From: Deltaproteobacteria bacterium
Lineage (GTDB): Bacteria > Myxococcota > Myxococcia > Myxococcales > 40CM-4-68-19
Assembly: GCA_005879535.1 (NCBI GenBank)
Contig: VBKI01000088.1
Location: 1 to 35,657, forward strand
Direction of reading: 5' to 3'
DNA length: 35,657 nucleotides
Within the stretch, counting starts at the first letter, position 1; each line of letters opens with the position of its first letter. A program made the position numbers and the translations under genes. A model generated the notes under the pieces. It was not told the DNA's origin. It ran no database searches and was given only the letters and a program-made list of their open reading frames with translations. Positions 1 to 7,395 of the stretch are shown one piece after another.

Positions 1-2603
<2,603 letters not shown>

Positions 2604-2615
<12 letters not shown>

Positions 2616-4881
2616 AGCGACGCGCCCGCCGCGGCACGAGATCGTGCCGAGGTTCACCGAAGCGCCGGCGTCGTTCGGAACCGTCAGCGCGAACCTGCAG
2701 GTTCCCTCGCGGAACTCCACTTCGGCCGCGTGCGCTCCGGCGCCGAGATTTCCGAACCAGAATTGCCCTTCGGCGCCGAGCGGGCTCTTCAGCCGCGCGT
2801 CCAGCGTCAGCTCGCCGAACGCCGGCACCGTGGTTCGCCCGTCCAGCTCCACCCGGATCAGCCCCTTCACGCTGGTCACGCGCTGCACGTCGAAGGACAC
2901 CAGCGCGCCGCCGCGGGCAGTGGTGGCGACGACCTTCTCGATGGCGCCGATCTGGTAGTCGATGGGAATGTCGGCGTCGCCGATCCGCAGGCGGTTGCCG
3001 TAGTAGGGCTGCAAGGCGGGGATGAGGAGGTTTCCGCCGCCGTCGGTCCGGCCGATCTCCTGGTTGTTGAGGAAGCCTCGGACTCCCTCGAGCCCCGGAA
3101 CCTGGATCAGCGCGAAGCCTTCCTGGACGGGTCGGCTCGCCATCCAGTTGCCGCCCACCAGGACCAGTGAGCCCGCCGCGGTCGCCGTCGCCCCGTCGCC
3201 CCCACCGATCCGATCGTAGGAGGCCACATAGCTGCCGTACGGCCCCTGGTATTGGACCTGGCCGAGGCCGGAGGTCGGCTGATCGCGATCGAACGTGGAG
3301 CGGAGCTGATAGCCCCAGCCCTCTCCGAGCGGCAGCGACTTCTGCACGCCTGCGGTCGCCGTTCCCGCGTGGCTTCCGGCGCTGCCACCGAGATCTCCGG
3401 TGGTGCTGCTCCCGAAGCTGTACATCAAGGTGGCGAATGCGAGCCATTCCGGCCCCACGCCGGGGCTGCGCAAACGCGATACGCTCAGCGAGAGCGAGAG
3501 CGTGTTCGAAATGTGGACGTCGCTGCGAACGGTGAGCGCGGACGACAGGCCCGTGTCCCGCATCGAATTGAGCTGTCCTTCGAGGACCACGTTGACGCGC
3601 GGGAGCAGGGGCGCGCCGACCGCCCCGCGAAGCTGCAGCAGCGGTCGATCGGCGGCGGCGGGAGTGGCCAGGTTGGAGTAGCCCGGCGTCATGCCCCGCA
3701 CCGAGGCGCCCACGGAGAGACGGCGCGTGAAGACGGTGTAGGACAGCGCTCCCGCGGCGCCGGTCGTCGCTCCGTCCGCGCTGGCGGCAGCATCCAGGTC
3801 GAGCTCTCCCACGGGAAGCGCCAGCGCGAACGTCGGACCGCCGCTCGCCAGGAGCGAGGTCCCATCGCTGCGCTGGAGAGCGGACTCGAAGCGGTACCCG
3901 AGGGTGATCTTGTCGCCGATGCCGAAGCGATGCCGCGCCAGCAGCTCGGGAGGACCGTAGTGAAGCGATTCCTCTCCGAATCCGATCCGGCGGAATCCGA
4001 GGTGGTAGCCATACTCGCTGATGCCGTCGGCGAGAACGCCCGACGCCGAGTAGTACGGCGAGGCGAATTCCTGCGTGCGCCCGAAGGCGTCGCGCACGAC
4101 ATAGCTGACCTGTCCGACCCCACTGCCCACCGGCAGGTTGCGCACCTCGAACGGACCGGGCGCGATCTGCTGCTGCCGCAGGAGGACGCCATTCATGTAC
4201 ACGTCGAGCGTCGAGGGAGTGAGGATGGCGCCGGACAGCTTCGGCAGCGGCTGGCGGACGAAATAGGGATCCAGCGAGAACTCGCGGGTGACGCTGATGC
4301 CACTGAGCTGGGCAGTGCCGCCGAGCTCCGAGGAGAGGCCGATGGCGTCGCCGACCTGCACCCGGCGCATCTCGCCCGGATCGTCGACCAGGAAGTAGGA
4401 GAGACCGCGCACGACCGAATGATCGGGGAGCACGGAGAAACCCGTGAAGCCGAGATTCCCGCGGAAGCTGGCGCCGACCTCGCCCGCCCCGCTCAGCGTG
4501 CCGTGACCGTCAGCGGTCACCGAATAGTTGAGGAACGCGCTGGTGTCCCTCCAGCAGCCCCGGCTGCGCGACAATCCGGACCGCCAGCGCCTGCGGATCG
4601 AAGCGAAACTCGATCTCCGGAGCCAGCGACCGCAGCGAAACGTACTCGCGGCCGTCGTGCAGCTCGCGGGTGCCCCGCAATCCGCGGAGGCCGCCCTTCT
4701 CGAGGTCATCCACTGCGACGAGCGCATCGTCAGGGGTTTCTGCTCCCCGCAGATACACGAGCACCGTGTCGCGGGAGACGTCGTTGACGAACAGCTCCAG
4801 GTACGCGCGCTGGTCGGATCCGGGCTGCGCGAAAAGCGCCGGGGCGCCGAGCAGAAGCAGCGCCGCGGCGCGCGCGCGCAT
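2604..4881 (-). pseudogene. Pilus outer-membrane usher (FimD/PapC family, archaic type), single-base frameshift
   Basis: This is the outer-membrane pore that receives chaperone-pilin complexes and assembles the pilus. Translation from ATG 4881 gives a signal peptide (MRARAAALLLLGAPALFA) and an usher N-terminal domain (YLELFVNDVSRDTVLVYLRG). That frame runs into a stop near 4510. The rest of the usher (from TSAFLNYSVTADGHG through the beta-barrel, plug and C-terminal domains to 2604) is in another frame. The two halves join smoothly if one G is removed from the GGG at 4547-4549, which would read LLEDTSAFLNY. The corrected protein is about 758 residues, normal for spore-coat-U-type ushers. A longer upstream start near 5042 in the downstream frame encodes Arg/Ser-rich sequence overlapping the chaperone gene and is not credible. 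The gene starts 4 nt after the chaperone stop. It is either a real inactivating mutation or a sequence error. Confidence 0.88.
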
Positions 4882-4885
4882 ATCG

Positions 4886-5641
4886 TTAGGTGTGGCAGGC
4901 TCCGCCCGGGGTATCGAGCGGCTCCTGCAACACCTGCTCCTTGTCCGTCTTTACGGACACGACGAGCCGGCGGACCTTCGCACAGGCGTCCTTCGGGACC
5001 TCGAGCTCGTACCGCCTGTGGCCACCGGCGAGCACGTACCAACCTTGCGCCTGTTTCTCGAAGAGCTTCTCTCCCCCCTGGGCAAAACCCTCCAGTCGGA
5101 CGGAATCGACGCGCAAGTGCACGTTGCCGGTGTTCTGCACGTCGACGGCGGCGCCGCCGCCCCCGAGCGACAGCGCGGAGAGCTTGTGGTCCTCGAGGGA
5201 CTTCACCGGCGCGAGAAAGACGGGAATTCCCACGCGCGTCAGGACCCGCACGGTGGACCGGACCTGCGGCTTCTCAGCCGCGGGCAGCTCCTCGAGGAAG
5301 ACCCGATACGTCTTCTCGATAGGCCCGAATGGGACCAGGGACCCTACGCGCAGGCTGCGGGTCTCGCCGACCTTGAGCTCGAGGATGATGGGGAAGACGA
5401 TGATCTCCTCGGTCGGGGCAAGCTTCATCCCCGTCCGCGCGTCCTCGTCCCAGGACATCACCGAGACCTGGTAGCGCTCATCGTCCGGGCCCTCGTTGCG
5501 CAGCGTCAACAGCGACTTCGACGCCTCCGGCGTGAGCCACACCTGCACCGGCGAGATGTTGAGCCCCGAAGCGCGCGCGCGCCCGGCTCCGCAGAGGAGA
5601 CCGAGCGCGAGCGGGATGTACGCCTTGCCGGTCGCGGTCAC
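4886..5641 (-). CDS. Periplasmic pilus chaperone (PapD-like)
   Basis: This is a periplasmic chaperone that would hold unfolded pilins by donor-strand complementation and deliver them to the usher. It has 251 residues: a signal peptide (about 1-25, ending GRARA) and two Ig-like domains. The first domain opens with the family-typical LNISPVQVWLTPEASKSLLTLRN. The next part has the alternating pattern of the G1 strand (TVRVLTRVGIPVFLAP), and the second domain contains AAVDVQNTGNVHLRV. The start is GTG immediately after the TAG of the upstream pilin gene, so translation is likely coupled. The gene order pilin-pilin-chaperone-usher is that of spore-coat-U (archaic, Csu-like) pilus operons. Confidence in the family is high; the pilin partner is inferred from position. 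Confidence 0.9.
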   Translation of the reverse strand: MTATGKAYIPLALGLLCGAGRARASGLNISPVQVWLTPEASKSLLTLRNEGPDDERYQVSVMSWDEDARTGMKLAPTEEIIVFPIILELKVGETRSLRVGSLVPFGPIEKTYRVFLEELPAAEKPQVRSTVRVLTRVGIPVFLAPVKSLEDHKLSALSLGGGGAAVDVQNTGNVHLRVDSVRLEGFAQGGEKLFEKQAQGWYVLAGGHRRYELEVPKDACAKVRRLVVSVKTDKEQVLQEPLDTPGGACHT

Positions 5642-6211
5642 CTAGAAGTTGACCGTGGCGGTGACGCTGTCGGAGTAGTTGATGGCAACGGGCACGTCCT
5701 GGCCCGGGGGAACGATCCCGAAGATGGTGATGGTCTGCGCGTTGATGTTGGGGACGGACGGCGCGAACGTCGAGGTGCCCGAGGTGCCGTCGCCCCAGTA
5801 GGCGGGGCTCGCGCTGGTGGCGCCGGGGCCTCCCACGCCGTTCGGCACGAACAGATCATAGGAGAGGAAGTTGCCCGCTGCGGGGGTACCGTTGTTCATC
5901 GCACGCTTGCCGGCAAGGTTCTGGCCGAAGTTGAGGTTGGCGAGCGACAGGGAGAGCACCGGCGACGCGCCGCGGGTGCAGGTGAGCGTGAAGGTGGTGT
6001 TGCCGGCGAGACCGGTGCTCGCGTTCGCGCTCACCGGGTCGTAACTCCCGAACGCGAGGTCGCCGATGGTGCTCATCACGCACACTGCATCGACGCGCGC
6101 GGTGGCGTTGAAGCTCTGGGTGGCGGACCCCGCTGCCCGCGCCGGAGCATTGGCGAAGAGCAGCACGGCGAACACGGCGGCGGTGAGGAGCTTTACAGAG
6201 TTCCGGGGCAT
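5642..6211 (-). CDS. Spore coat U domain pilin subunit (second in operon)
   Basis: An exported pilin of the spore-coat-U family, 189 residues. The signal peptide is about 1-27 (LLTAAVFAVLLFANAPARAA). The mature N-terminus (GSATQSFNATARVDA) is a beta-strand that could act as donor strand. Then come the paired cysteines C44 and C78, expected to form the conserved disulfide, and the family's closing sequence (INYSDSVTATVNF). The ATG at 6211 is preceded by AAGGAG at a good distance. The gene lies 22 nt downstream of the first pilin and directly abuts the chaperone. It is distinct from the first pilin, so the two are probably different structural subunits rather than a recent tandem duplicate. The exact role in the pilus (major or minor) cannot be read from sequence. 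Confidence 0.9.
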   Translation of the reverse strand: MPRNSVKLLTAAVFAVLLFANAPARAAGSATQSFNATARVDAVCVMSTIGDLAFGSYDPVSANASTGLAGNTTFTLTCTRGASPVLSLSLANLNFGQNLAGKRAMNNGTPAAGNFLSYDLFVPNGVGGPGATSASPAYWGDGTSGTSTFAPSVPNINAQTITIFGIVPPGQDVPVAINYSDSVTATVNF

Positions 6212-6233
6212 CTTCGACTCCTTGTTTGCGGGC

Positions 6234-6752
6234 TTAGAAATTCACCGTGGCGGTGACGGTATCCGTATAGGTGCCGACAGGGACGTCCTGACCGGCGATT
6301 GCGGCGCCGTCCATGTTGAAGGTTCGCGCCGCCTTGCTGGGCGGGGCGGAGGGCACGTACGGGGCGGCGGTGGTCCAGGGCGTCGTCGTGCCCGGCCAGT
6401 AGATGTCGTACCCGAGGTAGTTTGTCGTCGCGGGTAGCCGCATCGCGCGAGGGCCTGCCGAAGCCTGGCCCGCGTTGAGGCCGTTGTCGAGGCCGATGCT
6501 CGGCGCGGACCCCTTGGTGCAGGCGATGGTGACCGTGCCGCCGGTGGCGGCGGCATTCGAGCTGGCGTTAGCCCCGACCGGATCGTAGGTAAAGCTGATT
6601 CCGGTGGTGCTGATCGTGCAAAAGGCCACCACCGTGCCCGTCACTGTGAACGGGGTGCTGGCGCTGCCGGCGTTGGCGCCGGGGGCGAAAACCACCAGCG
6701 CGAGCAGTGCGGCGAGCGTGTGGCGCGGCAAATGATTGCGGCGAGTCGTCAC
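6234..6752 (-). CDS. Spore coat U domain pilin subunit (first in operon, likely major pilin)
   Basis: An exported spore-coat-U family pilin of 172 residues and the first gene of the minus-strand pilus operon. The signal peptide is about 1-28 (TLAALLALVVFAPGANA). A mature N-terminal strand (GSASTPFTVTGTVVAF) precedes C45 and fits a donor strand for the next subunit; the partner cysteine is C78. The C-terminus (TYTDTVTATVNF) is nearly identical to that of the second pilin. The start is GTG at 6752 behind a G-rich ribosome site (AAGGGGGAAG). First position in the operon is typical of the major subunit (compare CsuA/B), but this is inference. A candidate promoter with TTGACG lies 50 nt upstream. 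Confidence 0.88.
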   Translation of the reverse strand: MTTRRNHLPRHTLAALLALVVFAPGANAGSASTPFTVTGTVVAFCTISTTGISFTYDPVGANASSNAAATGGTVTIACTKGSAPSIGLDNGLNAGQASAGPRAMRLPATTNYLGYDIYWPGTTTPWTTAAPYVPSAPPSKAARTFNMDGAAIAGQDVPVGTYTDTVTATVNF

Positions 6753-6778
6753 GGCTTCCCCCTTGGGCTTCGGTAGCC

Positions 6779-6807
6779 AGATTATGAGCCATGCGTTGCG
6801 ACGTCAA
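6779..6807 (-). promoter_or_regulatory. Candidate promoter of the pilus operon
   Basis: On the minus strand, TTGACG (6807-6802) is followed by either CATAAT (6786-6781, 15 nt spacer) or TAATCT (6784-6779, 17 nt spacer). Transcription would start near 6772, about 20 nt before the GTG start at 6752. The region is much richer in A+T than its surroundings. The assignment rests on sigma70-like consensus only. Confidence 0.4.
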
Positions 6808-6820
6808 GAACATGACTATC

Positions 6821-6920
6821 GAAAATTACAGATAAAACGTAGAGATGAATGGCCCTTTGCAGGGCGTCGTGCGCGTTTTGCACACATTTGCTCCCCGGAC
6901 CAGATGGTTTTGTAATTTTT
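6821..6920. repeat. Inverted repeat flanking the divergent pilus promoter region
   Basis: GAAAATTACA at 6821-6830 and TGTAATTTTT at 6911-6920 are reverse complements at 9 of 10 positions, about 80 bp apart, in the AT-rich space between the two divergent pilin transcription units. The right arm contains TGTAAT, a possible -10 for the plus-strand pilin gene. The left arm places TGTAAT on the minus strand, just upstream of the TTGACG promoter. They could be two operator half-sites for one regulator, or simply two matching -10-like elements. The space from 6753 to 6957 holds no gene that I can see. Confidence 0.35.
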
Positions 6921-6957
6921 GTGGAGCCGGAACTCGGAATGGCGCAGGATCACGCGG

Positions 6958-7395
6958 GTGATCCGCCGCCTTGCTGCCGCCGCTCTCGCATTCGCGGCCG
7001 TCGCTGCGCCCTCGGCTCACGCCGCGCCGACTTGCAAGAACATCGCCGTCACCGCGCTCGCCTTCGGAAACTACGACGTCTACAACGCGGTCCCCGCCGA
7101 TTCCGCCGGGACGATCAGCTACGACTGCCCGAATCCGCTCACTCCCACAGTGACCATCGATGCCGGCCTGGCGTTCTCGGGCGGCCGGCGGCGCATGACA
7201 GGCACCCCGGCGACGGATTGGCTCTCCTACGATATCTTCGTCGACGCGGCGCGGACGGTGGTGTGGGCTTCAACGCCGGTTGCGGTACCGGCCGGCATCA
7301 ACCGGACCGTCTCCTACTATGCGCGCGTCTTCGCGCAGCAGGACGCGTCGGTCGGAAGCTATTCCGACACGCTGGTCGTCACGTTCAATTTCTAG
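6958..7395 (+). CDS. Spore coat U domain protein, divergent; lacks donor strand (candidate tip subunit)
   Basis: A small exported spore-coat-U protein. I place the start at GTG 6958 because it gives a clean signal peptide (MIRRLAAAALAFAAVAAPSA, cleavage about residue 22) with a weak GCAGGA ribosome site; a TTG at 6919 in the same frame is possible. The mature protein has C26 and C57, then DWLSYDIFVDAARTVVW and the family ending (SYSDTLVVTFNF). Mature sequence begins APTCKN, so the first cysteine is almost at the N-terminus. Unlike the two operon pilins, it has no N-terminal strand to donate. In chaperone-usher pili the tip subunit is the one that needs no donor strand, so a single-domain tip role is plausible. 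At about 145 residues it is shorter than usual. Its stop shares CTAG with the convergent aminopeptidase stop. Confidence 0.85.
   Translation: MIRRLAAAALAFAAVAAPSAHAAPTCKNIAVTALAFGNYDVYNAVPADSAGTISYDCPNPLTPTVTIDAGLAFSGGRRRMTGTPATDWLSYDIFVDAARTVVWASTPVAVPAGINRTVSYYARVFAQQDASVGSYSDTLVVTFNF

Follow-up and report, generated by a model that had tools for sequence, protein, structure and literature searches.

A donorless single-domain SCPU protein as the probable tip of an archaic chaperone-usher pilus in Myxococcota

Introduction

No chaperone-usher fibres are more widespread than archaic pili, whose tip is known only as a two-domain protein, described for CsuE of Acinetobacter (PMC9452303) and CupE6 of Pseudomonas (PMC10104325). 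In both, an N-terminal adhesin domain precedes an SCPU/Csu pilin domain that has no donor strand of its own. The major archaic pilins, CsuA/B and CupE1, do possess an N-terminal donor strand and polymerise. Polymerisation of CsuA/B is lost when its first 12 residues are replaced or the three hydrophobic ones are mutated, and CsuE itself does not polymerise (PMC4654587). The cupE genes are ordered pilin-chaperone-usher-tip, with the usher and tip (cupE6) genes overlapping, and archaic pili have no known chain terminators (PMC10104325). One-domain caps without an N-terminal extension have been described for AAF pili, where AggB, AafB and HdaB serve as minor caps (PMC5029526).

Here, we analyse an archaic pilus locus in a window of 35,657 nucleotides, meaning the whole stretch of DNA under study, which is contig 88 of a 5.16-Mb genome in 118 contigs. 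A sequence-only reading of the window had suggested a minimal archaic pilus with a one-domain tip, encoded by a gene at 6958-7395.

Results

The locus combines SCPU subunits, a PapD-like chaperone and an usher, and is thus an archaic (sigma) chaperone-usher locus (Table 1). The candidate tip gene is transcribed divergently from the minus-strand chaperone-usher genes, and the flanking genes, encoding a trehalose synthase/maltokinase-like enzyme and an M1 aminopeptidase, are unrelated. Genome-wide, there are 3 SCPU domains, every one at this locus, and 1 usher. As the sequence-only reading had it, a two-domain adhesin is absent: no two-domain SCPU protein was found in the genome, and the operons of close relatives have none linked to them. 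A scan of positions 6753-6957 found neither a sigma-70 consensus nor a terminator, and neither Rfam nor a short-peptide plasmid search returned a match.

Table 1. Features of the archaic pilus locus in the window
Feature	Position	Strand	Basis
Candidate gene for a one-domain pilus tip; single SCPU domain, donorless	6958..7395	+	GTG start, 145 aa; PF05229 93 bits; orthologues
Signal peptide MIRRLAAAALAFAAVAAPSAHA, predicted cut after AHA	6958..7023	+	Rule-based; orthologues show the same pattern
Mature tip domain from APTC; incomplete Ig fold without donor strand	7024..7392	+	AlphaFold, Foldseek
Pilin A, a donor-bearing SCPU protein	6234..6752	-	84.9 bits; model pLDDT 92.6
Pilin A donor strand GSASTPFTVTGTVVAF	6621..6668	-	Sequence; alternating pattern conserved; no strand assigned in monomer model
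Pilin B, a donor-bearing SCPU protein	5642..6211	-	63.3 bits
Pilin B donor strand AGSATQSFNATARVDAV	6083..6133	-	Sequence, alternating pattern
Periplasmic chaperone (PapD_N)	4886..5641	-	PF00345 35 bits
Usher; compared with L018, a 56-nt deletion near 4548 shifts the frame	2604..4881	-	Profile match, comparison with L018
Divergent intergenic region between pilin A and tip gene	6753..6957	.	205 bases; partly conserved in genus

The candidate tip protein matches PF05229 (SCPU) with 93.1 bits against a gathering score of 22.4, over residues 19-142. SCPU is its only family match, and the family search revealed no homology of the AfaD/DraD type. Its single mature domain, of about 123 residues, leaves no place for the adhesin-plus-pilin layout of CsuE and CupE6. 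Two conserved cysteines, a Sec-type signal and an intact C-terminal strand are all present. With the cleavage site called by rule and by eye, 3 residues precede the first cysteine of the mature protein, compared to 16 in pilin A (mature GSASTPFTVTGTVVAF-C) and 17 in pilin B (AGSATQSFNATARVDAV-C), close to the figure of about 15 proposed from sequence for the operon pilins, whose extensions display the alternating donor-strand patterns FTVTGTV and FNATARV, respectively. Were the cut placed earlier, for instance before PSAHAAPTC, the mature protein would gain just 5 residues with no strand pattern, and none of the plausible earlier cuts would leave a donor strand. The protein is therefore a donorless SCPU member, lacking the donor strand of the polymerising members of the family. 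The absence of a donor strand in the pilin domain is shared with the CsuE and CupE6 tips, and the possession of one Ig domain without an N-terminal extension with the AAF/Afa-type caps. With dN/dS values of about 0.24 and 0.07, the gene is under purifying selection.

AlphaFold models of single chains, computed for the window protein together with its relatives, agree with this picture. The tip model (pLDDT 89, compared to 92.6 for pilin A) is an open, incomplete Ig fold of seven strand elements, the first of which begins at residue 5. The pilin A model has the same incomplete Ig fold; it starts with 16 unassigned residues and continues with the same strand order, so that a free N-terminal extension is found in the pilin A model only. 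Among solved structures, Foldseek matched the tip model best to CupE1, CsuA/B and CsuE, whereas the match to DraD (2axw) was weak (E 4e-3). The possibility that the one-domain protein corresponds to the N-terminal adhesin domain of CsuE was considered but not adopted: the tip profile matched the pilin domain (CsuE residues 180-312, i-Evalue 2e-11), and its match to the N-domain was short and non-significant (i-Evalue 71). Thus, sequence, orthologues and model agree that the mature protein, starting at APTC, has no donor strand.

PF05229 is present in 48 of the 145 genomes of the order Myxococcales and in 51 of the 195 genomes of the phylum sample; loci were taken from most of the positive genomes and each SCPU frame in them was classified. 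A donorless one-domain SCPU gene accompanies donor-bearing pilins, a chaperone and an usher at 40 Myxococcota loci, the window included, although a few of these loci have parts beyond contig ends. The same-genus orthologues are 74-78% identical to the window protein and their mature form starts at APSC. The short N-terminus is common to all 41 donorless Myxococcota proteins, and its retention in these and in the orthologues indicates that it did not arise by chance. Automatic calls of the signal cleavage site proved too crude and were replaced by reading of the sequences and by the spacing between the n-region and the first cysteine, which is about 15-30 residues in donorless proteins and 31-40 in pilins (three measurement artefacts aside). 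In the Myxococcota set, a simple donor-strand pattern was recognised in 51 of 53 pilins and in none of the 41 donorless proteins.

The position of the gene varies. Half of the 40 loci (20, in families f1, f2 and f3) share the placement seen in the window, with the donorless gene either upstream of the chaperone-usher genes or divergent from them, and in the other 20 it lies immediately 3' of the usher, frequently overlapping it. The adjacency to the operon emphasised by the sequence-only reading is thus kept in relatives, but the divergent orientation is not general, the gene following the usher in most other lineages. Loci of the Myxococcaceae have the order pilin, chaperone, usher, donorless SCPU gene, and are presumably comparable to the Mcu system of Myxococcus xanthus. 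Orphan donor-bearing SCPU pilins, with no chaperone or usher nearby, occur in three loci of this family (L070, L085 and L086).

Several loci depart from the common arrangement. G178 (L092) has a genuine two-domain tip encoded downstream of the usher, the only such Myxococcota locus among those classified, and its detection demonstrates that the method is able to see such tips. In G080 (L074), a pilin, a chaperone and a complete usher have no recognisable tip gene adjoining them, and the genome has 1 SCPU gene. The locus of G002 (L023) is interrupted by a contig end; its usher (1803-4494, + strand) contains a partial N-terminal tandem duplication, with query residues 71-233 represented twice, which is possibly an assembly artefact. 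G188 (L093) alone among the 40 loci has two donorless one-domain SCPU genes, arranged in tandem after one usher (5140-5715 and 5857-6393, both on the - strand), which perhaps encode alternative tips.

Named genomes were also scanned with four tip sequences, a tight set used because the 16-member alignment was too diverse, and this yielded 30 loci. In 24 of the 30, a donorless SCPU gene of one domain comes directly after the usher, although the query selects for tips and the counts, biased outside Myxococcota, are not frequencies. Many of the 24 belong to other phyla: they include Acidobacteria, Nitrospira, Gallionella, Chromatiales, Moraxellaceae, Lysobacter, Parasulfuritortus, Tepidicaulis and a Rhodobiaceae genome, alongside further Myxococcales and Deltaproteobacteria. 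In the remaining loci, the gene is upstream on the same strand (L100) or divergent (4 loci), and L123 (Bradyrhizobium) encodes a two-domain protein. With 40 Myxococcota loci and 24 after-usher loci from the scan, the one-domain arrangement is a widespread class rather than a local feature. We take the order pilin-chaperone-usher-tip to be ancestral and the divergent order of the window to be derived.

Six loci encode shortened SCPU-like proteins beside the archaic pilus genes: L091 8760-9110 (-), L093 10378-10794 (-), L096 8421-8768 (+), L102 7447-7818 (-), L112 7528-7947 (+) and L114 7501-7947 (+). These have a signal peptide, a donor-strand pattern and a C-terminal strand, but the middle of the domain is short or degenerate. 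Such proteins would be able to donate a strand and hardly to accept one, and all six could therefore be chain terminators of archaic pili.

Everything N-terminal to the first cysteine was removed before tree building, leaving 134 columns. The 40 donorless and 52 donor-bearing proteins fall on opposite sides of the tree. The donorless and donor-bearing labels change twice along it, compared to a mean of about 30 for shuffled labels, with the qualification that the main split is moderately supported (89/70), the columns are few and the labels themselves were read from the N-terminus. Since the separation persists without the N-terminus, the donorless proteins most likely constitute an old, distinct lineage rather than pilins that lost the strand locally. 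The N-domain of the G178 protein was placed among the tips, yet on a branch 1.85 long.

The usher of the window differs from that of the same-genus locus L018 by the absence of 56 bases near 4548 (window 4510-4570). Beyond residue 112 of its L018 counterpart the frame is shifted, and the upstream frame ends at 4510, so the usher is not intact in this assembly; in both L018 and L021 it is one open frame. Either the pilus is recently dead in this strain or the sequence assembly is wrong, and pilus assembly may accordingly be absent in this genome. The comparative argument for a one-domain tip is untouched by the deletion.

Discussion

Collectively, these results indicate that the 6958-7395 product is very probably a one-domain tip, the subunit with which an archaic (sigma) chaperone-usher pilus would begin its assembly. 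The minimal pilus proposed by the sequence-only reading gains support from the near-universal presence of the donorless class at Myxococcota operons. We infer the distal location from donor-strand logic: having no strand to insert into a preceding subunit, the protein could enter only at the distal end, once per pilus. Presumably, the chaperone would hold the donorless protein in the periplasm and hand it to the usher first; the donor strand of a pilin would then insert into its groove, and further pilins would be added below. Because there is no separate adhesin domain, adhesion, if any, would be through the loops of the tip protein itself.

An alternative is that the donorless protein acts outside the fibre, as a chaperone-bound regulator or assembly inhibitor working on the chaperone or the usher. 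Divergent transcription in the window lineage would permit separate control, and a protein with no strand to donate could stall the usher. However, in most lineages the donorless gene is the final gene of the operon, the site of tip adhesins (PMC10104325), and the fold positions and C-terminal strand of the protein are conserved, which makes such a role improbable. More improbable still is that the protein is secreted freely or belongs to the spore coat, has no part in fibre assembly and completes its own fold by another route: neither sequence nor model has an extra strand at either end, and linkage to the usher, chaperone and pilins is constant over the 40 Myxococcota loci. What speaks for this reading is that the family is named after the Myxococcus spore coat protein U. 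An ordinary pilin deprived of its donor strand by decay, or by misreading of the start site or signal, is the least credible possibility, despite the frameshifted usher of the same locus, given the donorless N-terminus of all 41 Myxococcota proteins and of the loci of the collection scan, the separate side of the tree and the purifying selection.

Among known systems, the one-domain tip is best read as a variant of the CsuE/CupE6 tip. In most lineages, the donorless gene matches cupE6-type tip genes in being the final gene after the usher, and a matching tip role is predicted here; the difference lies in the number of domains. CsuA/B and CupE1 have the fold of the tip candidate and are its nearest matches in both sequence and fold, but they bear the donor strand that it lacks. 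The AAF caps and the related AfaD and DraD resemble it in being one Ig domain without N-terminal extension, but they belong to the classical FGL chaperone system, another branch, whereas the tip candidate is an SCPU protein. The open-access papers searched neither describe a one-domain tip for archaic pili nor state that the product of the last Mcu gene is a donorless tip.

Finally, we lean towards the view that a single donorless SCPU domain, with no adhesin domain, forms the tip of many archaic (sigma) pili in Myxococcota, Acidobacteria, Nitrospira and several classes of Proteobacteria. This would be a second tip architecture in addition to that of CsuE, and could be the more ancient of the two. 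If so, archaic fibres would be able to start and to be capped without an adhesin domain, which would raise the question of whether the rod or the tip loops mediate adhesion. A system consisting of a pilin, a chaperone, an usher and a tip would then offer a minimal setting for testing the onset of assembly.
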